Source: a virus. Taken from it: DNA of 26,998 nucleotides. Shown piece by piece: positions 8,662 through 26,998 of the stretch; the stretch's first letter is position 1; each line of letters opens with the position of its first letter. Both the position numbers and the translations under genes were made by a program. Under the pieces are notes generated by a model. The model was not told the origin of the DNA, did not search any database, and saw nothing but the letters and a program-made list of their open reading frames with translations. The DNA lies in the IMG/VR virus record IMGVR_UViG_3300017746_000114, positions 1 through 26,998 of that record. One strand, 5' to 3'.

Positions 8662-9501
8662 ATGGCAAAAAAAGAAACAAAAAAGGTTAATGTAGCGCCT
8701 GAAATAAAAGCTGCTAATGAAATGGTAGAAGTTGTTATTGAAAAACAAGAACCACTTAAAAAAGAAACAGCTAAAAAAGGCTGGGAAGTAAAAGATAGGT
8801 TGTACTATCTTAAAGGTAGACAAAAGCCTATTTCTTATTTGATGAAGTCTGCTAATGTATATTGGTTTGATCCAGAGAAGCAAGTTCAAAGAGAGTTGAA
8901 GTACTGTAAAAATCAGCAAACATGTTTTGTTGACGAAATGAAAGGTGACCAAAGACTTTCTCATATTGTTTTTAGAGATGGCAGTCTATTTGTTCCTAAA
9001 GAAGAGGTAATACTACAAAAACTACTATCATTATACCACCCTCATAAAGATAAGCTTTTTTATGAGTACAAACCAGCAGTTGAAGCTCAAAGTCAAATAG
9101 ATGTATTAGAGCTAGAAGCTGACGCTATAGTTACAGCTAGATCTTTAGACATAGACATGGTTGAAGCTATAATGCGAGTAGAAAAAGGATCTGAAGTGTC
9201 TAAGATGAGTTCTAAGGAACTTAAAAGAGATTTACTAGTGTTTGCAAGAACAAATCCAAATCTATTCTTAGAGCTAGCGTCTGATGACAACGTGCAGCTT
9301 AGAAACTTTGGTATCAAAGCTGTAGAAGAAGGTGTTATTAAATTATCATCTGATCAACGTAATTTTATGTGGGGATCTAATGATAGAAAAATAATGACAG
9401 TACCGTTTGATGAGCATCCATATACCGCTCTTGCGCATTGGTTTAAAACTGATGAAGGTATGGAGATATATTCAAACATTGAAAAGCGATTTAACGCGTA
9501 A
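8662..9501 (+). CDS. Conserved head-region protein of unknown function (279 aa)
   Basis: The gene follows the capsid terminator and is itself followed by a second UUCG hairpin, so it may be an independently controlled unit. The first 35 residues are Lys/Glu-rich and probably disordered. Residues 40-125 are strand-rich (GWEVKDRLYYLKG, LSHIVFRDGSLFVPKEE), and residues 140-279 are mostly helical (MSSKELKRDLLVFARTNPNLFLELASD). I recognise this overall pattern, including the KTDEGMEIY C-terminus, from uncultured marine phages, where it regularly follows the capsid gene. Position suggests a head-completion, decoration or connector role. No catalytic or metal-binding motif is evident. Its leader is AT-rich without a Shine-Dalgarno. 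Confidence 0.85.
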   Translation: MAKKETKKVNVAPEIKAANEMVEVVIEKQEPLKKETAKKGWEVKDRLYYLKGRQKPISYLMKSANVYWFDPEKQVQRELKYCKNQQTCFVDEMKGDQRLSHIVFRDGSLFVPKEEVILQKLLSLYHPHKDKLFYEYKPAVEAQSQIDVLELEADAIVTARSLDIDMVEAIMRVEKGSEVSKMSSKELKRDLLVFARTNPNLFLELASDDNVQLRNFGIKAVEEGVIKLSSDQRNFMWGSNDRKIMTVPFDEHPYTALAHWFKTDEGMEIYSNIEKRFNA

Positions 9502-9514
9502 TCATCCTATAGTA

Positions 9515-9542
9515 GAGCAGCCACTCTTCGGGGTGGTTGCTT
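9515..9542 (+). terminator. Second UUCG hairpin; weak terminator or RNA-processing element
   Basis: Bases 9517-9540 form a 10-bp stem (GCAGCCACTC against GGGTGGTTGC, with G-U pairs) around a TTCG loop closed by C-G. An A-T and a G-T pair extend it to 9515-9542. Unlike the capsid terminator it has no T-run; the next bases are AACTATAAAA. It may be a leaky terminator, a 3'-end stabiliser or an mRNA-processing site between the head and neck genes. Confidence 0.55.
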
Positions 9543-9562
9543 AACTATAAAAACAAAACATA

Positions 9563-10297
9563 ATGGCAATAAGTGTAGACACAGTATATCAAACAGTATT
9601 GGCGCTAGCCAACAAAGAGCAAAGAGGTTATATCACGCCTCAAGAATTCAACTTATTCGCTAACCAAGCTCAAATAGAAATATTTGAACAGTATTTTTTT
9701 GATCTATATCAATTCAAAAGAATGCCACAAAATCATAACGAATCAACAAATCCTGTTGATTTTATAGATGAAAAGTTAGACTTGTTTAGAGTTAGAGCTT
9801 TTTTATCCTCAGACGTTGGTCTTGACACAGGAGATAATAATGATAGTACCTTTGACCTACCTGAAAATCATTATAGAACTATATCTGTAAACAGAAGAAA
9901 TAACTCAGGATCTGGTGCTACTGTTTGCCAAAGAGTTGAATGGAACAATTACCATTACTTATCTCAAGCTCCTTTGCTGGTACCTCATGATAGTAGACCT
10001 GTATACGTAGTCTACCAAGGTAGTGGCAACAGAATACTCACAAATCCTTCTTCACCAAACGGTGTTGAAGTATTCTATATTAGAAAGCTAAACAACGTTA
10101 ACTGGGGTTATATGCTTCAAGATAACAACGCTTTGTGGAATCCTAATACAAGCGCAGATTTTGAACTACATCCTTCAGAGCAAAACAAGCTTGTGTTAAA
10201 AATATTAAAGCTGGCAGGTATATCTATAAAAGATGCTGAAATTTCTCAATTAGCTACTCAGCAAGAAGTAACTAACTTACAACAACAAAAATCTTAA
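9563..10297 (+). CDS. Neck/ring (head-to-tail connector) protein
   Basis: This 244-residue protein opens with the helical block TVYQTVLALANKEQRGYITPQEF and then NLFANQAQIEIFEQYF, a pattern I know from uncultured marine phages in the same position. A beta-rich centre includes ENHYRTISV. A C-terminal segment from residue 206 (ELHPSEQNKLVLKILKLAGI) leads into a Gln-rich tail. It is located between head and tail genes and directly before the tail-tubular-type protein, five bases away. It is therefore most likely one of the rings that close the portal channel. The function is inferred from position and family recognition; no enzymatic motif is present. ATG 9563 has only an A-rich leader (AAAAACAAAACAT). 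Confidence 0.75.
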   Translation: MAISVDTVYQTVLALANKEQRGYITPQEFNLFANQAQIEIFEQYFFDLYQFKRMPQNHNESTNPVDFIDEKLDLFRVRAFLSSDVGLDTGDNNDSTFDLPENHYRTISVNRRNNSGSGATVCQRVEWNNYHYLSQAPLLVPHDSRPVYVVYQGSGNRILTNPSSPNGVEVFYIRKLNNVNWGYMLQDNNALWNPNTSADFELHPSEQNKLVLKILKLAGISIKDAEISQLATQQEVTNLQQQKS

Positions 10298-10301
10298 CTA
10301 A

Positions 10302-11915
10302 ATGGCAAACGAGTATTATAACTTAAAAAAAGGTCACGATAAAGAGTACTACAATAGTACCATGAAAGAAAATAATATTGACCAAAGCCCTTTTGGTGAA
10401 TATCAGTTTGTCTCTTTAAATGATGTTGTAGATCAGTTTATGGTTGTTTATGTTGGTGAAGGAAAGTTAATAAATAAAGTTAGTAGAGTTGATGTAGGTT
10501 TTTGGGCTCAAAGAGCTTTAGCTGAACTTTCTTTTGACACTTTAAAATCTATAAAATCACAACAAATAAACTTACCACCATCTTTAACAATGGTTTTACC
10601 CGCAGACTATGTTAACTATACTCATATTAGCTGGGTAGATGATAAAGGAATAAAACATCCTATATATAAAACTACGCAAACTTCAAATCCTTTTCAAATA
10701 GCTCAAGAAGAAGAAGGTGTATACTTCTTTGGAGATAACTCACAGCTAGTTCAAAACGGTGATCTTGACTTTAACTTTACAGATGACTTTAGCACTACTT
10801 CAGCTAGTTTAGTCAAGCTAGATGATACAGGCGGTAAATTACAAACACTTCTTCAAGGTCGTACCGGCTGGTTTGGTAGTAGAGTTTTTAACAGCGCGGC
10901 TAACAATAACGTAGAGTTTAGAAACGCACCTCACAAAACAGGTGCTACCTACCACGGATCTGCTCAGGCTTTTTGGCAAGAAATAGATGTTACCGGAATG
11001 ACAACTTTAGAGATTTCTGCAAATGCAACATCAATAGAGTCAGGCACGGGAACAAGCTACAGGCAAGATAAAGCAACAGGTAATACTATAACAGAAACAT
11101 TTACTCACTCAGCAAGTACAGTAAGGTTTGGTTTAAGCACAATAGCTCCAGACGCAGCTAACATAAGAGATGTTACTGTAGGAAGTGCTTTAGCTGCTAA
11201 CCACTCATCAGCAGAGTACTTTGACTTAGGTTACGTAGAGTGGACAGCTGGAGAATCTGGAGAAAAAAGCATAACTGGCGTTGATGTTAGCAATGTTTCA
11301 GGAACAGTTTACGTTTTAGCTAGCGGTCAAGCTAACTGGCCGTTAAGCAACGCGACTAACAAGCCTGACGCTTATATGGAAGTTACTTCTACTATAGATG
11401 AGTTGTCTGTTAGATCAGATGCAAATGTAAATAATTTAAAAAGAGAAAACAGATTTGAATCTTCTACTTGGACAAAGTTTAAAAGCGCAGGTAACGCCGA
11501 AGCGGTTGAAGATAACACTGCAGACGTAGATGACTTCCGAGTAAACGCTAAAGGTCAAAGATATGGATTAGAGCCTTCAACTGCTCAGAGCAATGGATCT
11601 TTTTATATAGATGAAGAACTAGGTAGAATACATTTTAGCTCTAACATTTCTGGAAAAGATGTAATATTAGATTACATAAGCGATAGTCTTGGCACTTGGT
11701 CTGAAATGAAAGTTCACAAGTTTGCTGAAGAGGCAATGTACAGATCAATAACGCATGGAGTATTGTCTACTAAATCAAATATTCCAGAGTATATAGTTCA
11801 AAGAGCTAAAAAAGAAAAGTTTGCGGCTACACGTCAAGCTAAGTTAAGACTATCAAATATAAAAATTAGCGATTTAACGCGTATTTTAAGAGGTAAGTCT
11901 AAACAAATAAAATAA
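10302..11915 (+). CDS. Tail tubular / ring protein with a beta-rich insert
   Basis: This 537-residue protein has an N-terminal helical region (FWAQRALAELSFDTLKSI, residues 67-84, then QQINLPPSLTMVLPADYVNY) and a C-terminal region (DSLGTWSEMKVHKFAEEAMY, then RQAKLRLSNI). Together they have the layout of T7 gp11 / P22 gp4-type tail adaptors that ring the portal exit. The two parts are separated by about 220 residues (152-372) with a different, Thr/Ser/Ala-rich beta composition, described separately. The core without the insert would be about 315 residues, closer to the relatives I recall. The product is expected to form a dodecameric ring on which the giant downstream protein assembles. That gene starts seven bases later. 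Confidence 0.8.
   Translation: MANEYYNLKKGHDKEYYNSTMKENNIDQSPFGEYQFVSLNDVVDQFMVVYVGEGKLINKVSRVDVGFWAQRALAELSFDTLKSIKSQQINLPPSLTMVLPADYVNYTHISWVDDKGIKHPIYKTTQTSNPFQIAQEEEGVYFFGDNSQLVQNGDLDFNFTDDFSTTSASLVKLDDTGGKLQTLLQGRTGWFGSRVFNSAANNNVEFRNAPHKTGATYHGSAQAFWQEIDVTGMTTLEISANATSIESGTGTSYRQDKATGNTITETFTHSASTVRFGLSTIAPDAANIRDVTVGSALAANHSSAEYFDLGYVEWTAGESGEKSITGVDVSNVSGTVYVLASGQANWPLSNATNKPDAYMEVTSTIDELSVRSDANVNNLKRENRFESSTWTKFKSAGNAEAVEDNTADVDDFRVNAKGQRYGLEPSTAQSNGSFYIDEELGRIHFSSNISGKDVILDYISDSLGTWSEMKVHKFAEEAMYRSITHGVLSTKSNIPEYIVQRAKKEKFAATRQAKLRLSNIKISDLTRILRGKSKQIK
10755..11417 (+). other. Jelly-roll / carbohydrate-binding-like insert in the ring protein
   Basis: Residues 152-372 of the ring protein begin with NGDLDFNF and end with STIDELSVRS, the usual opening and closing patterns of CBM4/9-type beta-sandwich modules. 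Between them lie alternating strands and aromatic residues (FWQEIDVTGMTTLEISA, FDLGYVEWTAG). Both flanks read as the conserved adaptor core. Such modules often sit on the outside of phage tails and bind glycans. The boundaries are approximate and the fold is inferred from pattern only. Confidence 0.5.
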
Positions 11916-11921
11916 TAGTTT

Positions 11922-14900
11922 ATGCCAGAGATTAAAAATACTTTTGTTCGAGGTAAAATGAATAAAGACCTTGACGAAAGGTTAATACCTAATGGAGAAT
12001 ACAGGGAAGCGTTAAACGTAGAAATATCTACTTCTGAAGACTCTGACGTGGGTACTGCTCAAAACATTGTTGGTAATAAAAGAATTGATAAACTTTTTAA
12101 TGGAAACTTTGCAATTAGCTCTAATGACTTTACGTGTATAGGCTCTATTGCTGATGAAAAAGAAAATAAACTTTATTGGTTTATAACTTCTGCCAATAAA
12201 GACATAATACTAGAGTGGGACGAAGAAAATCAATATTCATCTTTAGTTTTTGTAGATACTAAGAAAAAAGTTAAAGGTGCTACTTTAAAATTTCCTTCTA
12301 AAACTATAACAGGTATAAATATAGTTGATGAGTTTTTAATGTGGACAGACGGCGTTAATGAGCCAAAAAAAATAAATATAAAAAACTGCAAGTTAGGAAC
12401 AACTTCAGTAAATCAACACACTTTACTTTTCGTTAATGGCGCTTCTGTTGGAGACATTGAAGAAGAGCATGTAACTGTAATTAAGAAAAGACCATCCACT
12501 GCTCCTTTTATAAAAATCAATCACACTGATTCAGTAGAAGAAAAAAGTTTGTTTGAAAACGTATTTCCAAGATTTACCTACAGGTATAAGTATGCTGACG
12601 GTGAATACTCGGCTTTTGGTCCTTTTACTGCGCCTATTATTTCTGCAAAATATTCTAAAGCTTATAACTCCTCTAATTTTTACGACATAAAAGAAGGTTA
12701 TAACACAGCGATGTACAACACTATAAAGTCGCTTGAAATAATGGACTTTGTTCCTCATGACATACCTAAAGATGTTGTTCAAGTTGATATATTATACAAG
12801 CAAGACGATTCTAATGTTGTTTATTCTGTAGCTAAAATAAAAAACACTGATCCAGAGTTTAGCGCTAAAGGATCAGGGCTAGGTGTTCAGCTACTTCAAC
12901 CTATTGATGATGTAAATAGGTACAGAAACTTGGGTAAGTATGTTTTAAACACAGAAAACATTTACGCTGCAGTTCCAGAAAATCAGTTGTTAAGAGTATA
13001 CGACAATGTTCCAAGAAAAGCTATAGCTCAAGAAGTAGTTGGCAACAGGTTAGTTTATGCTAATTACACTCAAGGATACAATATTGATCAAGACGTTAAA
13101 GTTTATGCTAACTATGAAAAAAGAAACGTTAAACAATCTTTTGAGACAGGAGGAATACAATCTGTTAAGTCTCAGAGAGACTATCAAGTTGGCGTAGTTT
13201 TTGGAGATGAGTATGGAAGAGAAACACCTGTAATCACATCATCAGAAGGTTCTATTAAAATTCCTTTTACTGATGACGATATAGTGAACGGCGTGGTTTC
13301 AACTAAAGCTATAAATATAAAAGCTAAGATGTCAAGCTACGCTCCAGACTGGGCTAGCTACTTTAAGTTTTACGTTAAAGAAACTTCAGGTGAGTATTAT
13401 AACGCTTTAATGACTGCCGCGTTTATACCTGGCTCTGACACTGAGTTTGACAACAAAGAAGAACACCTGTGGCTAGCATTTAACTCGTCTGACATAAACA
13501 AAATACAAGAAGACTCTTACTTAGTATTAAAAAGAACAATTGGCGCAAATGGTGGTACTATAAACTACGAGAACAAATACAAAGTAATAGATGTTAAAGC
13601 AGAAGCTCCAGAGTCTATAGCTTACAACTACTTTGACTTGTGTAGCCAGTTAAACAATGACCTTCAGCTTAATGATGGCGGTACAGATGGCTCTATAATG
13701 CAAGAACATCAATTTAGGATTGATCAAACTGTAGACAAAATAAAGATAGATGTAGATTCTTACTTAGCGCTAGGGCACTCTCCTATACCATCTTCTGATG
13801 GTGAAAACGCTTCTACAGAAACATCTAACAACATATACATATCTTGGAAACTTGAAGATACTAACGATGCGACTTTTACTCACTCTAAAAAGTATAAGGT
13901 AAGTAGCGTTAGCACTGTATCTGGAGCTTATGTTTTAGGCTTAGCCAACAAGATAACACCTGGCGACGCCAAGCTTGCTTCAGCAGCCGCTAACAAAGCT
14001 ATAAACACAGCTACAGGCTCTTTAGATGCAAATCTAACGTTTCTTGTAGAGCGTAAAGATAAAAGAGAAGGAGAAGATTTTTCTGGTAAGTTTTTTGTTA
14101 AAATAAAAATAGACGAACTAATACTTCAAGCTTTAGTTAACAAGCAAGTTGAAGTTCATAACAATAAGTTTATTTCTTCTTCAGCAGATGTATTGTGGCT
14201 TGCTTCAATTCAAGATTCTTCTAACGAGCTTGATGGAGTTTTAAATACTAATCCTTACGCTAACAATCCAGACACCACTGTTCAAGAACTTATAAGTGCA
14301 GCTGATGATGAGTTAGCAGACGCTTCAAGTCATTGGTCAGATATTTTGTCTGAAACAGGGCCTACGTTTTTTATAGACAGCATGTATTTGACAGACTCTA
14401 ACCCTTCTGACTCTTATTATGCTAAAGAATCAGGTCAAGGTTGGAGAGGTAATCCTGTATCATATCCAAAAGTAGTTTGGAACAATACTACAGATATACC
14501 TTGGTCTCCAAACGTTATTAGCACAGAGCAACAGTATGACGTAGATAATTTTTCTGCGAGCAACGTGATGAATGGTCTGCCTGGAATAGTCACCACTAAC
14601 ACAGATTATATAGAAGGAGGATCTAAACAGTGGAAGCAAGATAGCGTGTTTGACGTTAGCTTTGAAGATTCTTATGGAGAGGAGACAGGCAAAGTATTTA
14701 TGCATATTTCTTTTTTAGCTCCTGGAAAAAACTTACACTCTTCAAACTGGACAGACAACAGTGGGCTAGCAACTTCTACGGCTACTGGACTTCAAAGCCT
14801 TGCTAAAGACACGCAAGGAATATGGGGAGGAGGATTTTTTATAAAAGACGGGTTTTATGTAGAGTTTGAAGGCAATTACGATCAAACAAACTCTGCTATT

Positions 14901-17900
14901 GGTATGCCAGCGCCTGGCCCAGGAATAGGTAAAGGATATGACTTAAACTACAGAGAGCTGCACGAAAGACAGTGGGACCCAACCTTCAACGTTAACGGTG
15001 ATCCAGATGGCGTTATAAAAGAGTTTATTGAAAACATAAAAATTGGTTCTAAGTTCAAGTTTTCTAACGATACTACTAACGATCTTTACACTATACTTAA
15101 CGTTAATGTAAAGCGCATATACAATCACACTTCTTGGAGAACTAGACATCAACATGTAGCTGGAGTACCTTACTTAGACGGCAAAAGTGTTGAGGAAAAA
15201 GCTTTAGTTTGGGCAGCTGATACAACTAACGTAGAAAATGGAGACGCTTTAAAAGCTGCTATTGAGGCTTTTGGTAAAGCGAACAATAGAAGAGTATGTT
15301 ACATTATAGAGTTAGATAAAGATCCAACAGGCGCTTCGTCAAGCTTTAACCCGGTACAAGGCGGTAGCGGCTTTCCAGATGCTGACACGCCTACTACTAT
15401 AGAATTTGTTGACGAAAAAACACAAGCATTATCTGCTTTAAAAATAAACACACCAGCTGTTTTTGAAACAAAACCTAAGCAGTCTGCTGACTTAAACATA
15501 TTTTATGAGGCTAGCGAAGCTATTCCTTTGTTGTTAGACGTTGACTCTGCTGAAATGTTTTGTCCAAGAGGTAGTAGAATAGAGTTTCCAAATTTACCAG
15601 CAGCTAGATATGGCAAAAAGCAAATAACACAAAACGTGTATGTTAGGCAGTGGAACTTAGATGGAGATCAACTTCACTTTTTAGTAAGGCATGAAAACAA
15701 TGCTCAAACATTTGGGTTTAACTACTTAAACGCTAATCAAGACATAATAGATTACTCTAATCAAGAAGTAAGATTTTACAGACCTGACGGCGGTTACACT
15801 ACAGCTATAATAGGTCAAAGTTACACAGATCAACAAAATGAATTTGACGCTGGGTATAGGGTTATATTTAACGTGTCTAAGTTTGTTGACACTGGCGTAG
15901 ACTTTGGTTTGTCTTGGAACAACTGTATATCTTTTGGTAATGGTATTGAATCAAACAGAATAAGAGACGATTTTAACGCACCGTTTATTTTAAATGGAGC
16001 TAGAGCTTCTTCTACAATAGAAGAACCTTATTCTGAAGAAAATAGAAAATACGGCTTAATATACTCTGGTATATATAACTCAACTAACGGTGTAAACAAC
16101 TTAAATCAGTTTATACAAGCAGAGAAAATAACTAAAGATGTTAATCCTACTTATGGCAGTATACAAAAGCTTTATACAAGAGACTCTGACTTAGTAGCGT
16201 TTTGCGAAGATAAAGTGTTAAGAATATTAGCAAATAAAGACGCTATATTTAATGCTGATGGTAATCCTCAGCTTGTAGCTACTGAAAATGTTTTAGGTCA
16301 AGTTAATCCTTTTGTAGGTGATTTTGGTATATCTAAAAACCCTGAGTCTTTCGCTAAAGAATCTTATAGAGCATACTTTGCTGACAAACAAAGAAGAGCT
16401 ATAATGCGACTTTCAATGGATGGGTTAACGCCTATTTCAGACGCTGGCATGAAAGACTTTTTTAGAGACAACATGCTTAACGCTGGTAAAATACTAGGCA
16501 CTTATGATGAGTACAAGAAGCAATATAATGTAACTATATTAAACCCTTCGTTTAACAACATTCTAGCTAACTCTTACATATCTGAAGGAGTAGACGTAAC
16601 ACCTGTTACTTCGACTAATGAAATAGTTGAAAACGCTGGGTTAAACGGCGGTGTTGATTACAATTTTGGAGGCACTATTAGCGATTATTACTCTCAGTAC
16701 CAGTACTTAAATAATACTGGCTTTAGAGCTGAGGCAACAATAACACGTTTTCCAGCCATAAGCACTGAGTTTTATCAGCAGTTTGTTGAAGGTCAAGAAG
16801 CTATAACTGGTGTAACCGGTCAAGAAGGAATACAAGATCAAGACGCTGCTTTTCCAGAGTTTTTCTCTGGTGGCTCTTTTGATGGTGAAAGAATGTATAG
16901 TTATCGTAACACCACTAACGACGGTAACGCTTTTTATCCTGAAGGAACTGGCTATAACAGCGGCTTTGAAGCAATGCTTGCTAGATTTACTAGTGACAGC
17001 CCTACGGCGCTTATACCACTTGATGATGCTATTAACCCAGCAATCGCATCAACCGATGGCTTTGGTATAACAGGAAACTTTAAGACCAACCGTATATTTT
17101 GGAGCGACACAGAAGGCACAATAAGTTATAGTTGGGCAGGTTTTAATTTTAGTCATGATTACTATGATGGTATAAACTTTACAAACTCTTCATACAACGA
17201 CGACGGTATTTTAGCTGGTATTTTACTTCCTGGCTACGTATCAGCAGGAAGCACTATACCTAACGACTATGTAGCACCACCTGTTTTAGCGGCTAATCCT
17301 ACAGCTAATAACATGACTATATTTAATGGTGAAGAAATAAAAATAGTTGTTAAATATACTACAGACTTAGGCACAATATCCGATTATGACCCAACAATAG
17401 AAATAAGATTGAGAGATGGCTCTGGACAATTTGTTAACAACTCTACTTTAAGAGATTCTAGCAATATACCAAGTGGTGCACCTGCTGGGCTTGAAGCGGC
17501 GACAAACACAAATCCTTATACAACATTTTTTGCGGATGAACAGCTCTTCGACACATCTAACGTAAACGCCTATGGCTATCAAGCTAATAACGCTTTAGTT
17601 ATAACTGAAATAGATACAGCTGAAAACGAAGAAACAGAACTTGCGGTTTCTGTTCAATACAAGTTCGTAGAAGAAATGGCCCCTACTGTTTGCGTAGATA
17701 GTCTAAACGTAGATGTTAGAGTTGGTATTGGAGATTATAGAGAGACTGTAACTATAACCGCGGTAGAAATATATAAAATGACTGCTATTCAAGACCTTGG
17801 GCAAAGCTTTGTACAAGGCCAAGAGCAAATAGATCCTGTAACAGGTCAACCATTTATACAAGCTGCAGAAGCAGTGCCTGGTGTTTATGGAAATCCTAAC

Positions 17901-21744: not shown

Positions 21745-22863
21745 ATGGCAATAAAAGGTTTAAAATCACCTTTCAAGAAAAAAGCTAGTCCGTTAAAGAT
21801 GGAGCCTTTTACGGCTATTCAGCTTGGAACGGCGGTATTAGGTTATTTTGGAAAGCGTAAAGCTAGAAAAAGAATGGCTAAACAAAACCGTGATGCTCAA
21901 GCTCGTTTAGAAGAAATGAGAGAGCAATATATGGATTTAGAATTTACAAACCCTTACGCTGGTCTACAAAGTCCTTACGAAAACATGCAGAACCAATACG
22001 CTGGTTTAGAAAACCAATACGCCGGCTTGCAAAACGTTTATGAAGGAGCGGAAAATATATACGAAGATCTTAGAGTAGATACAAGAGCAGCGGACTTTGC
22101 CAGACAACAATCACAGCAATCTCAAGCAAACATATTAAGCAATTTAGGTGGTGTGGCTGGCGCTAGCGGTATTGGAGGTTTAGCTCAAAGTTTAGCTATG
22201 GCTGGCACTCAACAAGCACAACAATCTGCGGCTAGCATATCACAACAAGAAAGAGCAAATCAAATGGCAGAAAGAGGTCAAGCAGCTAACTTACAAGCGG
22301 CTAGATTAGGTGAAACCTCTAGACTTGAAGGTGTGCAAGCTGGTGAAAGAGCTAGGCTGCAAGGTCTTACTGCAACAGAAGCCTCTAGAATTGACGAGAT
22401 GCAACGATCTGGAAGATTCCAAACAGATATGCTTAGAAGAAAAGGCCAACAATACGTAGAGCAACAAGAACAAAACCGTATAGCTCAAATGTACGGCTTG
22501 TCAGCAGACACAGCAACATCTACAATGCAAGGTTTAAATCAAGCTAGAGCAGATCAATCTGCAGCGTTCGGACAAATGTTTAGTGCTTTTGGTAGCGCTT
22601 ACGCTGGTGGTGAGTTTGACTTTTTAAAAGGCCCATCAACTTCCAATTTAACAATGGCGCAAGGATCAACTTTACCTGGAAATACGCTTGACTCATCATA
22701 CATGTCTCCTACTTATGGCTCAAATCCTATTTTTACAAATGACTTTGGACCTCAAGATCTGGAAATTCCAATATACGGAGTAGAAAGCGGCACAGAAGTT
22801 AACGTAAGTGGGTATCCATCGTATTTAAACCAAAGTAGCCCATTTTCTAAAAAGAAAAAATAA
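21745..22863 (+). CDS. Internal virion / ejection protein with Tyr heptapeptide repeats
   Basis: This 372-residue protein opens with a basic segment (residues 6-18) and a short hydrophobic stretch (FTAIQLGTAVLGYFG, 22-36). A charged helix, a six-copy heptapeptide repeat (69-110) and a Gly/Ala/Gln-rich region (NLGGVAGASGIGGLAQSLAMAG, 131-152) follow. Then comes a long Arg/Glu/Gln helical section to about 260 and a low-complexity C-terminus ending SPFSKKKK. This is the design of T7 gp14-like and uncultured marine phage internal proteins, which are ejected to help form a channel through the outer envelope. The role is inferred from composition and position. Its stop overlaps the next start as TAATG, so the two are probably translated together. 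Confidence 0.8.
   Translation: MAIKGLKSPFKKKASPLKMEPFTAIQLGTAVLGYFGKRKARKRMAKQNRDAQARLEEMREQYMDLEFTNPYAGLQSPYENMQNQYAGLENQYAGLQNVYEGAENIYEDLRVDTRAADFARQQSQQSQANILSNLGGVAGASGIGGLAQSLAMAGTQQAQQSAASISQQERANQMAERGQAANLQAARLGETSRLEGVQAGERARLQGLTATEASRIDEMQRSGRFQTDMLRRKGQQYVEQQEQNRIAQMYGLSADTATSTMQGLNQARADQSAAFGQMFSAFGSAYAGGEFDFLKGPSTSNLTMAQGSTLPGNTLDSSYMSPTYGSNPIFTNDFGPQDLEIPIYGVESGTEVNVSGYPSYLNQSSPFSKKKK
21949..22074 (+). repeat. Six tandem 21-bp units encoding a Tyr-centred heptapeptide
   Basis: Residues 69-110 of the internal protein read NPYAGLQ, SPYENMQ, NQYAGLE, NQYAGLQ, NVYEGAE, NIYEDLR. All six units share Tyr at position 3 and Gln, Glu or Arg at position 7, and four have Leu or Met at position 6. 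Units three and four are nearly identical in DNA, with mostly synonymous changes, pointing to recent duplication. The array precedes the conserved ADFARQQSQQ segment. Confidence 0.85.
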
Positions 22864-24503
22864 TGGCAAAGAAACAAGATAAAAACAAAGGCTTAATGTC
22901 ACAAGATTTTTTAGGTGACATAAATGATATGGTTAATCAACCTTCTGGTAAAGGCTTATATGAAAAGTTAGCTAGATTTGAAAGACAAAAAGCGTTGCAA
23001 CCTCTAGCTGATCAAGCAGTATTTTCTGCAGGCTTAAAACCTGTTGTGCAAAGAATTAAAGAAGCTGAAGATCAAATAAAAGCTAGTATGACTGCTTATA
23101 TTGCTGCTAATCCTGATATAGACGACTCTTTGTTGTTTGACGGCACGTCTGACATAGTAACAGGCACTATGAAACAAAATAGTGACGAGTATAGAAAGCT
23201 AAGCAGACAAATAGCTTTTTTAGATCCTTCTAGCGCTAAATACGATACTATAGTTAACAAGATGAACAAAATCAACTCTACGACTGCTCAGTTTAGAGAT
23301 GACAATAAGAAGTTGCTAGCTATAAGAAACCTAATGAAAGAAGAAGACAGAGTAAATAAAATTTCAGGAGGTAATAAGCCTTTTGAGCAAGCTATGTACG
23401 ATGACATATTGACAGGAAAAAACAAAGATAGATTTCAAGATATTGACGGGCAACTACACTACGTGCTTAATGGAGAAAAAAAGGCTATAAAAGATATAGA
23501 CGCCGGTGGACCAACAATGGAAAACGATGTAGCGTTTGTAGGGGCTAACACTCTTTTAAACACCGTAAGAGACATGGAAAGTTTAAATCAACAAGACTTG
23601 ATGTTTAAGATAAACAACATGTATAACGCAGAAGGTTTTGGCAACGCTGGAATAAAGTCTTTAATGTTTGATGGTATAAATGTAGATCTTAAGTCTCCAC
23701 ACAGCCCTAACGGAGCAATGTTTAACACGTTTAGCTGGTGGGAATCCTTATACAAAGACTTAGGTATTGAAGGCGATCAAGCTGCTCAAGCGTTAATTCA
23801 AAAGCAAATCAAAGAAAAAGGTGTCACAAGTATACTTAAAGGCGTACCGTTTAAGCCACCTATTTCTGGAGAATCTAACATAAATGTTCGAGATCATTTT
23901 ACTAAGTGGTACGCTGGGAAATTAACAGAGGTTCACGAGGAAATGCAGAAACAAAAACTTGTTGAGGCTGGTCTTCTACCTGAAGAACCAGCAGAAGAAG
24001 CTAACGACTTAATAAAAGCTCTTATGCCTCAGCCAAACCAAAGCACTAGCACGCAAGCATCGCCAGGTGGTGGCGCCGTTTCAGTAGACGAAGCTGTAGA
24101 AGATGAGCAAGTTTCAAGCGAGGGAGTAGAAGTGGTTGACAGCAAGCCTTTCGGTAGAGACGAGGTCATAACTTTAGAAGGTATAACTGAAAAAGAATAC
24201 AAGGATTATCGTAGTATACCTACTTTCTTCAAGTCTGAGGAGCAAAAAAAGCTAAAGCAAAAAGTAGAAGAAGCTTTTAAAAAAGCTAAAGAAAAAGGCG
24301 GTAGAAAACTTAATTCTAAAAAAAAAGATAACAAACCAGTAGTAAACACTAACGAAGATCTTAGTCTTAGTTCAGAAGCTGAGGCTGAAATGAATACCTA
24401 TAGAACTGCTGGAGAACTACAAGAAGCTTACGAAAATGGTGAAATAAAAAGCCCTGATCTAATTAAATGGGTTGAGCTTAATATAAATAACAAAGCTGTT
24501 TAA
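22863..24503 (+). CDS. Internal virion protein, probable ejection protein (546 aa)
   Basis: The start overlaps the upstream stop by one base (TAATG). Residues 1-170 are mostly helical and charged (YEKLARFERQKALQPLADQA, KMNKINSTTAQFRDDNKKLL). Residues 190-360 are mixed and more globular (WWESLYKDLGI near 295). From residue 370 a Glu/Ser/Gln-rich linker leads to a Lys-rich stretch (KKAKEKGGRKLNSKKKDNK, about 467-485) and a short helical end. The layout and place between two other ejection-type proteins suggest a T7 gp15-like internal core component, though sequence identity to T7 cannot be claimed. No signal peptide, membrane helix or catalytic motif is visible. Function by context only. Confidence 0.75.
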   Translation: MAKKQDKNKGLMSQDFLGDINDMVNQPSGKGLYEKLARFERQKALQPLADQAVFSAGLKPVVQRIKEAEDQIKASMTAYIAANPDIDDSLLFDGTSDIVTGTMKQNSDEYRKLSRQIAFLDPSSAKYDTIVNKMNKINSTTAQFRDDNKKLLAIRNLMKEEDRVNKISGGNKPFEQAMYDDILTGKNKDRFQDIDGQLHYVLNGEKKAIKDIDAGGPTMENDVAFVGANTLLNTVRDMESLNQQDLMFKINNMYNAEGFGNAGIKSLMFDGINVDLKSPHSPNGAMFNTFSWWESLYKDLGIEGDQAAQALIQKQIKEKGVTSILKGVPFKPPISGESNINVRDHFTKWYAGKLTEVHEEMQKQKLVEAGLLPEEPAEEANDLIKALMPQPNQSTSTQASPGGGAVSVDEAVEDEQVSSEGVEVVDSKPFGRDEVITLEGITEKEYKDYRSIPTFFKSEEQKKLKQKVEEAFKKAKEKGGRKLNSKKKDNKPVVNTNEDLSLSSEAEAEMNTYRTAGELQEAYENGEIKSPDLIKWVELNINNKAV

Positions 24504-24508
24504 AATAT

Positions 24509-26998
24509 ATGTTTGAATTTAAAGGACAAGACTGGACTGTAGAAGACATACAAGCTGCTGCGGATAAAACTGGATCATCTTATGATGATGCTTTGGCTGA
24601 GCTTAAAAAAGTCGGCATGGTAGAAAAGCAAGACCAAAACACTTCTTGGTTTGAAGCTGCCCAAGAGTGGCTTTTACCTAGTATGAGCGAGTTAAACGAA
24701 GCGCTTTCTAGCGGGCTTTCTCGTGCTGACGCTTATTCTCCGTCTCAAGACATTTACTCCATATCAAGCAAGTCAGAAGCTGCAAACATGTCTGACAAAG
24801 AGCTTGAAGCGTACATAAAAGCTGTTAACGAAGCTGCTAAAAAAGGTAATCTTGTTGAGCTTAAGAAATGGTCTGATTCTTATCAAAAAAATAGAGACGA
24901 AGGCGAAAACATGTTTATGTCTACACTGGTAGCTATTGGAGAAGAGGGTTTAGACGGCTTTGCGCAAGTCATGGTTCAAAGTATGGCTGGCCTTGCAAAC
25001 AAAGAAATACTAGCTATTGGTGGCGGTAGCGCTGCTGTTGTTGGTGGTGGTACAGGTATTGCCACGGGTGGGGTTGGAGCTATACCGGCTGGCGCTGCAG
25101 CTTTTTTTGGCGCAGCTAATACCGCTGCAGAAACAATGATGACTTTTAATGAGCTTCTACAAGAAGAGTTAAAAGAAAGAAACTTAAAATTTACACCAGA
25201 CAACATAAGAGCTGTAATGTCTGACGATGATGCTAGAGGAGCGATTAAAAGAAAAGCTACTCTTAGAGGTGTTACTATAGGAGCTGTAGAAGGTGTGTCA
25301 AGCTTAGTAGGTATAAAAGGAGCTGGAGCTGTAGCAAAAGCAACTTCAAAAGCAGGCAACATTGTTTCAAAGACAGCTGGAGCTACAACCGCTGCAGTTG
25401 TAGAAGCTGTTGGTGGCTCTGCTGGTGAAGCTGCTGGTATGGCCGCGGCTGGCCAAGAGTTTAATGAGCAAGAAATAATACTAGAAGGTATTGCCGGAAT
25501 GGGTAAAGCTCCTTTAGACTTAGCTTTAGGCACAGTGTCTACTGTTAAAAACTCTCCTAAATATTATGTTGATGGCGTAAAAGTAAGCAAGAAATCTTTA
25601 GATGATTATGTTAATAATGCTACTGCAGAGGAATTAGCGGCTGTTAATATTGATGTTGAAAACGACGCCGTTACTAAGGAAAAAATAAACGACATAAGAT
25701 TAGACTCTGCAATTGACTCTCAACTTGATACTAGAGTAACAAACGTAGAGGATAGAGCTGAACTGTTAAAGCTAGAAAAAGATCTTTTAAAATTAGGAGA
25801 TAAAAAAACTAGGTCTGGCCAAGCTGAAAAGAAAAGAATACAGTCAGATATAGACAGCGTACTAAATAAGTATGAAGGTGTAGAGGCTGACGCTTCTTTA
25901 GAACAAGCTAAACAAAATGTCGGTGAAGCTAGACTTGAAAAAAGCATAAGCTTTGCTGAAAAGCAAGGCGCTAGAATTGGCAAACAAATAAACGTACTAG
26001 ATAACGACGATACTGCTCAACAAACTTACGACAAGCTGTTAAGTGAAGGAAAAGTAAAAAAATCTATGAACGTAAAAGGTACGGATGGATTTATTGTTGG
26101 TGATCAAATATACATCAACAAAGAAACAGCCAGCAAAACTGGCGCTATATCTGTAGGATCACACGAAATTCTTCACGGTATAATAGGTAATTCTTTTGGA
26201 AAGTTAGACGCGGACGCTAGAACAAAGCTTGGAAAAAGCTTTATGAACACGCTAACTAGGCAGCAACGAAGGGCTGTAGAAAAAAGGCTTAAAAACAGTT
26301 ATAAGCTAGAAGGCGAAGCAGCGCTTCAGTCTGAAGAAATGTTTACAGCATTCTCTGACGCTATAGAAAAAAATGAAATAACTTTTAACGAAGGCGTGTT
26401 TAGTAAAATAGGTAACGCTATAGAAGAAGTTTTAAGAAATCTTAGTGAAAAAGGTTTGATTAGCGAAGACAGCTTTTTGTTCAGAAAAGAATTTAGTAAT
26501 GGAAGACAAGCATATAACTTTTTAAAAGATTATAACCAAAGCGTAAAAGTAGGCGAGCTTAGCCAAAGACAAATGGCTTTTGCTGAAGTTGATGCAGAGG
26601 TAACTCCAGAGCAAGTAGCTAAAGAATCTCGTACTTACACTAAAACAGATCGAGACGTTCGTATAGACAAGCTTGGCGAACAATACACTAAAGAAGAGTA
26701 CGGTAGCGCTAAAAATAAAAAGCCTGGTAAAGGTACAGACGTATACTTTGAGATGTACGCTAGTGGTGATCTTGAAGCTATGGTTAGAAGTAGAATTACT
26801 GGAGAGCTTAGACGAACACCTGGATTTTTAGAAGAAGACTTTGTAAACGAAGTTCTTGGAGAGTTAAAAAACCATGTAGAAAACTTTGATATAACTCGTA
26901 AAGAAACAAACGAAGGTTTTGGTTTAGCAGGTTGGATTAGAGCTCAAGTTGGTAACAAGATAGGTAACGTGCTTAAAAGAGGGGCTGTTACAGAAGAA
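24509..26998 (+). CDS. Large ejected virion protein with HEILH zincin domain (incomplete)
   Basis: The frame is open from ATG 24509 to the window edge, giving at least 830 residues with no stop seen. The N-terminus has a helical opening. Two Gly/Ala-rich hydrophobic sections (about 165-210 and 252-350) resemble membrane-inserting parts of ejection proteins. Residues 410-475 look coiled-coil. A zinc metalloprotease-like domain follows: GFIVGDQIYINKE, then HEILH at 552-556 and a possible third ligand at E609/E610 (SEEMFTAFSDA). The last 80 residues resemble sigma-factor region 2 (EEDFVNEVLGEL, FD, GWIRAQVGNKIGNVLKR). Large multi-domain virion proteins of this kind (T7 gp16-like, polyvalent proteins) are carried in the head and ejected. 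The protease is inferred from the motif; the sigma-like part is more tentative. Confidence 0.85.
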   Translation, partial: MFEFKGQDWTVEDIQAAADKTGSSYDDALAELKKVGMVEKQDQNTSWFEAAQEWLLPSMSELNEALSSGLSRADAYSPSQDIYSISSKSEAANMSDKELEAYIKAVNEAAKKGNLVELKKWSDSYQKNRDEGENMFMSTLVAIGEEGLDGFAQVMVQSMAGLANKEILAIGGGSAAVVGGGTGIATGGVGAIPAGAAAFFGAANTAAETMMTFNELLQEELKERNLKFTPDNIRAVMSDDDARGAIKRKATLRGVTIGAVEGVSSLVGIKGAGAVAKATSKAGNIVSKTAGATTAAVVEAVGGSAGEAAGMAAAGQEFNEQEIILEGIAGMGKAPLDLALGTVSTVKNSPKYYVDGVKVSKKSLDDYVNNATAEELAAVNIDVENDAVTKEKINDIRLDSAIDSQLDTRVTNVEDRAELLKLEKDLLKLGDKKTRSGQAEKKRIQSDIDSVLNKYEGVEADASLEQAKQNVGEARLEKSISFAEKQGARIGKQINVLDNDDTAQQTYDKLLSEGKVKKSMNVKGTDGFIVGDQIYINKETASKTGAISVGSHEILHGIIGNSFGKLDADARTKLGKSFMNTLTRQQRRAVEKRLKNSYKLEGEAALQSEEMFTAFSDAIEKNEITFNEGVFSKIGNAIEEVLRNLSEKGLISEDSFLFRKEFSNGRQAYNFLKDYNQSVKVGELSQRQMAFAEVDAEVTPEQVAKESRTYTKTDRDVRIDKLGEQYTKEEYGSAKNKKPGKGTDVYFEMYASGDLEAMVRSRITGELRRTPGFLEEDFVNEVLGELKNHVENFDITRKETNEGFGLAGWIRAQVGNKIGNVLKRGAVTEE

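Follow-up and report, generated by a model that had tools for sequence, protein, structure and literature searches.

A sigma-70 region 2-like module behind the protease domain of a giant, putatively ejected phage protein

The locus and its giant gene

The window, the whole stretch of DNA analysed here, is the complete IMG/VR record IMGVR_UViG_3300017746_000114 (26,998 bases), and there is no record sequence past position 26998. Its + strand carries a phage structural operon, with terminase, portal and head proteins identified by PHROG and then long tail-like proteins. Within the window the operon ends in a three-gene cassette encoding proteins of 372, 546 and 830 or more amino acids. The features are listed below; the hydrophobic stretch and the short motifs were read from the sequence, and the extent of the protease domain from alignment.

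21745..22863, + strand: 372-aa Gln/Ala-rich protein, cassette gene 1; ejection-protein candidate by position, inferred by analogy with T7 gp14
22863..24503, + strand: 546-aa protein, cassette gene 2; ejection-protein candidate by position, inferred by analogy with T7 gp15
24509..26998, + strand: opening third of a gene encoding a giant polyvalent protein of ejection type; 830 codons, cut off by the contig end
24986..25138, + strand: Gly/Ala-rich hydrophobic stretch (about aa 160-210), possibly membrane-inserting (function inferred)
25946..26608, + strand: zincin-like metallopeptidase domain, approximate extent; an HMM of the region matches 60 ORFs
26162..26176, + strand: HExxH active-site motif HEILH (about aa 552-556), intact in the window
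26576..26998, + strand: sigma-70 region 1.2/2-like module (about aa 690-830); complete counterpart at L003:10682-11173
26837..26851, + strand: DFVNE (aa 777-781), at the position of region 2.2 DLIQE
26885..26890, + strand: FD (aa 793-794), compare sigma 'FDPxxG'; FDP or FNP in most relatives
26930..26980, + strand: GWIRAQVGNKIGNVLKR, region 2.3/2.4-like helix; its W falls opposite RpoD Y430, the conserved aromatic of region 2.3

Neither of the first two cassette proteins had a PHROG match. A preliminary description of this DNA had placed EEDFVNEVLGEL, then FD, then GWIRAQVGNKIGNVLKR in the last ORF, and the translation bears out both their order and their position. The gene beyond position 26998 was obtained complete from two related contigs, L002 and L003, where it encodes 2408 and 2407 aa. 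In both, an N-terminal region with hydrophobic stretches is followed by the HExxH zincin, the sigma-like module and a helical region, and then by a DxDxT HAD-like stretch, read by eye from the residues, and a conserved C-terminus. The HAD-type stretch and the highly conserved C-terminal region lie within the giant genes at L002 9818-17041 and L003 8705-15925; the Cys-rich C-terminal tail of the L003 protein (8705-15928) matches DUF5763 above the Pfam cut-off (E 7.7e-7). The family meets the description of polyvalent proteins, with several disparate domains in a giant zincin-bearing chain and domain shuffling between relatives; in L003 the set comprises the HExxH zincin, the sigma-2-like module, the DxDxT HAD-like stretch and the Cys-rich DUF5763 tail.

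The window's copy of the gene is a mosaic. From 24629 to 26599 it matches L002 at 87% DNA identity, and aa 39-700 match L003 poorly. Near-identity to L003 is seen in the first 37 or so codons and again in the module (from about aa 700), and much of the structural operon upstream resembles L003 too. The switch between L002-like and L003-like sequence falls at the start of the sigma-like module. Because the ends are L003-like and the middle L002-like, we infer from these alignments that the module is exchanged as a unit between relatives. The three contigs are separate records, but a chimera made in assembly is not entirely ruled out.

Relatives of the terminase belong to phages of Flavobacterium, Cellulophaga, Tenacibaculum and Maribacter, and the carrier is probably a podovirus of Bacteroidota with the giant protein in its head. 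The giant gene is the last of the structural operon, and the syntenic gene is annotated as structural or virion structural in elemo, phi38:1, phi13:2 and phi46:3. The giant structural proteins of Flavobacterium phage elemo and Cellulophaga phages phi38:1 and phi13:2 share the gene order and the terminal place in the operon; that of elemo has an HExxH motif like the family described here, and phi38:1 gp101 matches the family weakly at its N-terminus. Unlike that family, they have no match to the module HMM, and the module-bearing protein has not been seen in virions. Ejection is therefore only inferred. By its position and synteny, and by analogy with T7 gp14-gp15-gp16 and the N4 virion RNA polymerase, the giant protein probably reaches the inside of the host before the phage DNA does.

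Occurrence, predicted fold and sequence of the module

The sigma-like segment is 96% identical between the window and the independent contig L003, and an HMM built from nine such segments recognises the domain at the equivalent position in 47 distinct proteins. A fair census requires relatives gathered without selection for the module, which we collected by full-length alignment. That set has 56 distinct giant proteins with a zincin, and in 49 of them the module comes directly after it; in the other seven, a sigma-like stretch at this position was recognised by eye only (for example NYDPKKGKFSTHVY in L033). HExxH is intact in 54 of the 56. The identity to L003, the same-slot matches and the census together put the order of motifs beyond chance. 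Two subtype scans, which unlike the census select for the module, found HExxH ahead of it in giant ORFs for 71 of 75 and 41 of 43 matches. The module was always fused in the scans run, and a stand-alone copy was never observed. Widening the scan brought the number of stretches in viral contigs encoding relatives of the giant protein to at least 561. The giant proteins of the window, L002 and L003 had no tblastn match in 50,697 phage records, and a scan of genome contigs found no relative. Module-only searches gave a weak match in an Erwinia phage, dropped for want of support from the module HMM, and one unannotated fragment, also dropped.

Two divergent subtypes were modelled with AF2. The L003 model has a pLDDT of about 90 in its core, with the region 2.3/2.4-like part forming a helix at 118-161. 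Searched with Foldseek against 350,542 PDB chains, it had sigma factors as its first 16 matches (top probability 0.91, lowest E 0.4); for the model of the second subtype, L064, sigma factors filled the first 45 places (probability reaching 1.00, lowest E 0.12). On re-alignment with VIA-align, every match shown was a sigma factor for both models, the top one for L003 being T4 gp55 (Z 7.5), with Z up to 8.6 for L064. No single Foldseek E-value is significant, the best being that 0.12, and Z values of this middling size are common for helical models. The structural argument is thus modest and rests on the same family recurring each time in comparisons of predicted models, not on single E or Z values. 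Both models have the helical fold of region 2. The preliminary description had likened the segment to sigma-70 region 2, a proposal that the lack of such a match, or a better match to another helical bundle, would have overturned; with sigma factors heading both Foldseek lists and named by blind sequence searches as well, the likeness stands.

Those sequence searches gave a signal that was weak but in place. A profile of 47 members, run blind against 177,635 PDB sequences, had a sigma factor as its best match, in register (E 0.13). For the L033 type, represented by four members, a sigma factor was the only PDB match (E 0.0015). Blind scans of 38,880 PHROG families gave 'RNA polymerase sigma factor' as the family matched by most members (4 of 47 in one set, 21 of 58 in another). 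In hhalign comparisons the real score exceeded all of about 200 column shuffles in five of six cases, and in the sixth 2 of 200 shuffles reached it. Pfam Sigma70_r2 matched weakly and in the expected place inside the giant ORFs of L087, L081 and L005 (E 0.002-0.04); outside those three, its only matches were real sigma genes of 251-264 aa. No module passes the Pfam cut-off of 24 bits, the best scores being 13.5, 12.7 and 9.4 bits, and the window has no match at all. The module is therefore filed as a distant relative of sigma region 2 and not as a Pfam member.

Several searches were silent. Scanned singly against Pfam and PHROG, the window protein had no meaningful match in the module, and the L071 module alone had no sigma match in the PDB. 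The larger single-subtype profile A9 also found no sigma factor there, though the same set is the one in which 21 of 58 members matched the PHROG sigma family. For certain pairs of subtype and template there was no signal against larger sigma alignments or a phage sigma set. At the level of the fold, the sigma reading holds.

Residue by residue, the agreement with RpoD is partial. Counted back from FD, DFVNEVLGELKNHVENFD of the window lies opposite DLIQEGNIGLMKAVDKFE of RpoD with equal spacing, and from DFVNE to FD the distance from D to F is identical to that in RpoD DLIQEGNIGLMKAVDKF. RpoD residues D403-E407, in region 2.2, contact the beta' clamp. The D403 position holds D, N, E or S in 42 of 47 members and the Q406 position D or E in 27 of 47, with only 19 of 47 having D or E at E407. 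Y430, W433 and W434 are the aromatics of -10 melting, the two tryptophans acting in promoter melting. The Y430 position is aromatic in 39 of the 41 members alignable there and is followed by a basic helix; the two tryptophans are not conserved among the members.

The checks proposed in the preliminary description covered both region 2 and region 4 of sigma factors. Region 2 was recovered by predicted structure and by profiles; region 4 was not, a PDB profile search downstream of the module giving no sigma match (the fold there is unmodelled) and the profile of the conserved downstream region having no meaningful PDB match. A likeness to the region 3.2 finger (SLDAPIDD in L002, SMDAPVGE in L079) was noticed by eye only and is not claimed.

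Compared with sigma-70 region 2 as found in domain 2 of RpoS and RpoD and in T4 gp55, the module is alike in predicted fold, in the aromatic at 430 and in a D(L/F)(I/V)x(E/D) helix at the same spacing to FD. It differs in being embedded behind a protease in a phage protein of 2,200-3,400 aa, with no detected region 4, without W433/W434 and with scores below the Pfam cut-off.

Sigma genes and promoter-like arrays in long relatives

Six of the nine long relatives examined carry a full sigma factor of 250-264 aa as a separate gene. The stand-alone phage sigma factors of 251-264 aa are listed below; their coordinates are those of stop-to-stop frames, and regions 2 to 4 are readable in the sequence of each.

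L094 1487-2266, - strand: stand-alone phage sigma
L095 97-879, - strand: stand-alone phage sigma
L096 1077-1844, + strand: stand-alone phage sigma
L097 2575-3348, - strand: stand-alone phage sigma
L098 2434-3225, + strand: stand-alone phage sigma
L099 2898-3650, - strand: stand-alone phage sigma

A promoter-like bipartite motif, in most copies ACAAACTAAATACGA-N9-GATAAT, occurs at least once in all nine. A loose first pattern was too permissive (61 copies observed against 25 in shuffles) and was replaced by a strict one, which has 57 copies in the nine contigs against about 0.8 in shuffles. The motif is strongly conserved and, in the long relatives, forms arrays within their non-structural region; no copy of the strict pattern occurs in the window, L002 or L003, all of which cover structural regions.

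L237 15868-10981, - strand: ACAAACTAAATACGA-N9-GATAAT array, strict motif
L238 7457-4538, - strand: array, strict motif
L241 9156-3717, - strand: array, strict motif
L242 8127-12967, + strand: array, strict motif
L252-L259: arrays, strict motif

The promoter consensus of Flavobacteriaceae is TAnnTTTG (PMC9723704), unlike the phage motif, and neither host-type TAnnTTTG nor sigma-70-type promoters were enriched in the four long relatives searched for them. In four long relatives, 1.5-2.9 kb separate the sigma gene from the nearest clear copy of the motif upstream of it, and the interval holds ORFs on the same strand. Something must therefore read the phage-type promoters first. The arrays may be read by the stand-alone phage sigma or by host factors, and nothing ties them to the virion domain.

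Possible roles at entry

We have little doubt that the module descends from sigma region 2, and are less certain of its function. Our preferred reading is that a divergent sigma-70 region 2, with a region 1.2-like helix ahead of it, is part of an ejected giant protein and engages host RNA polymerase at entry; we put its probability at roughly 0.55, and both the binding and the ejection are inferred. The computed support consists of the domain's fixed position behind an intact HExxH zincin, its fold and modular exchange, and the separate full sigma factors and arrays of a non-host promoter motif in long relatives. This suggests, and does not yet show, that the infecting virus supplies the cell with a transcription-start factor of its own.

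On the preferred reading, the giant protein would be carried in the phage head and ejected ahead of the DNA, after which its chain may be processed by the adjacent zincin. The sigma-2 domain would then dock on the beta' clamp of the host core RNA polymerase. Both steps are inferred. Once docked, it could act as a minimal sigma, comparable to T4 gp55, that steers the polymerase to phage early promoters, with -35 contacts supplied by something else; alternatively, docking might displace the host sigma. In the four long relatives, the promoters ahead of the stand-alone sigma gene would need a prior reader, for which the virion domain is the candidate. A fuller scheme, in which marine Bacteroidota phages of a widespread group eject a minimal sigma that is released by the protease, loads onto host core polymerase, reads phage promoters and starts an operon including the full sigma factor, is possible, and we hold it only tentatively.

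The module might instead be a true descendant of sigma region 2 that does not select promoters, and either blocks the sigma site, shutting off the host, or tethers polymerase to the entering DNA. We think this unlikely, although the missing region 4, the unconserved melting tryptophans and the acidic residues common at 2.2-like positions would all suit it, and host takeover by injected proteins is well established as a theme among polyvalent proteins (PMC5512222). Against it, the near-constant aromatic at Y430 and the basic helix that follows are as expected if non-template DNA is still bound, and the phages have a promoter class of their own. Somewhat less probable again is reuse of the fold away from RNA polymerase, for instance in holding single-stranded or incoming DNA in the ejection channel. 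An ejection-type protein would be a natural place for such a role, which the conserved aromatic, the basic helix and the invariable fusion would also fit, but the region 2.2 acidic helix of sigma factors faces beta' and not DNA, and its counterpart here tends to persist, notably at D403 and Q406. A convergent helical bundle unrelated to sigma factors is already very improbable, for although similarity is weak in most subtypes and the Z values are ordinary for helical models, independent structure and sequence searches with several divergent subtypes name sigma factors and little else, in one common register (FDP, then F/L-x-x-aromatic).

A phage that uses host RNA polymerase has to redirect the enzyme at a time when none of its own proteins has yet been synthesised. 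From the virion this is known to be done by packaging a polymerase, as in N4, or by injecting a modifying enzyme, as in T4, where Alt is an injected ADP-ribosyltransferase acting on host RNA polymerase. Like the protein proposed here, Alt is a virion protein that retunes host polymerase at entry; unlike it, Alt works enzymatically and has no sigma-like domain. The N4-type virion RNA polymerase is the largest ejection protein of Schitoviridae (PMC12633501), the giant in a set of three ejected proteins by which early transcription is started, a role that for the present phages is inferred only. Here the giant protein has a sigma-like domain and not a polymerase; in a search for virion RNA polymerase genes, which the preliminary description had proposed to look for downstream, PF00940 matched nothing in 35 related records, and the controls were silent too.

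The polyvalent proteins of Iyer et al. 2017 (PMC5512222) are giant, multidomain, zincin-containing and domain-shuffled, like this family, and zincin processing and help to early transcription are both proposed for them there. Their transcription-related domains are N4-like RNA polymerase and protein-modifying enzymes; the word 'sigma' does not appear in the main text, and the sigma-like domain of this family sets it apart to that extent. A full-text literature search, confined to openly licensed papers, found no description of a virion-delivered sigma domain, which does not exclude an earlier one. If the preferred reading is true, a virion-borne sigma domain would be a third route besides the N4 polymerase and T4 Alt, in a host phylum with unusual promoters of its own. 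It would also offer a way into the hundreds of contigs from uncultured marine phages in which no function had been named for the giant protein.

The type IX secretion sorting domain TIGR04183 also scores above cut-off in proteins encoded by two of the related contigs, at L002 19924-21750 and L007 17571-19715. Such proteins may reflect phage use of the host T9SS and, as far as a domain match can tell, they too point to a Bacteroidota host.
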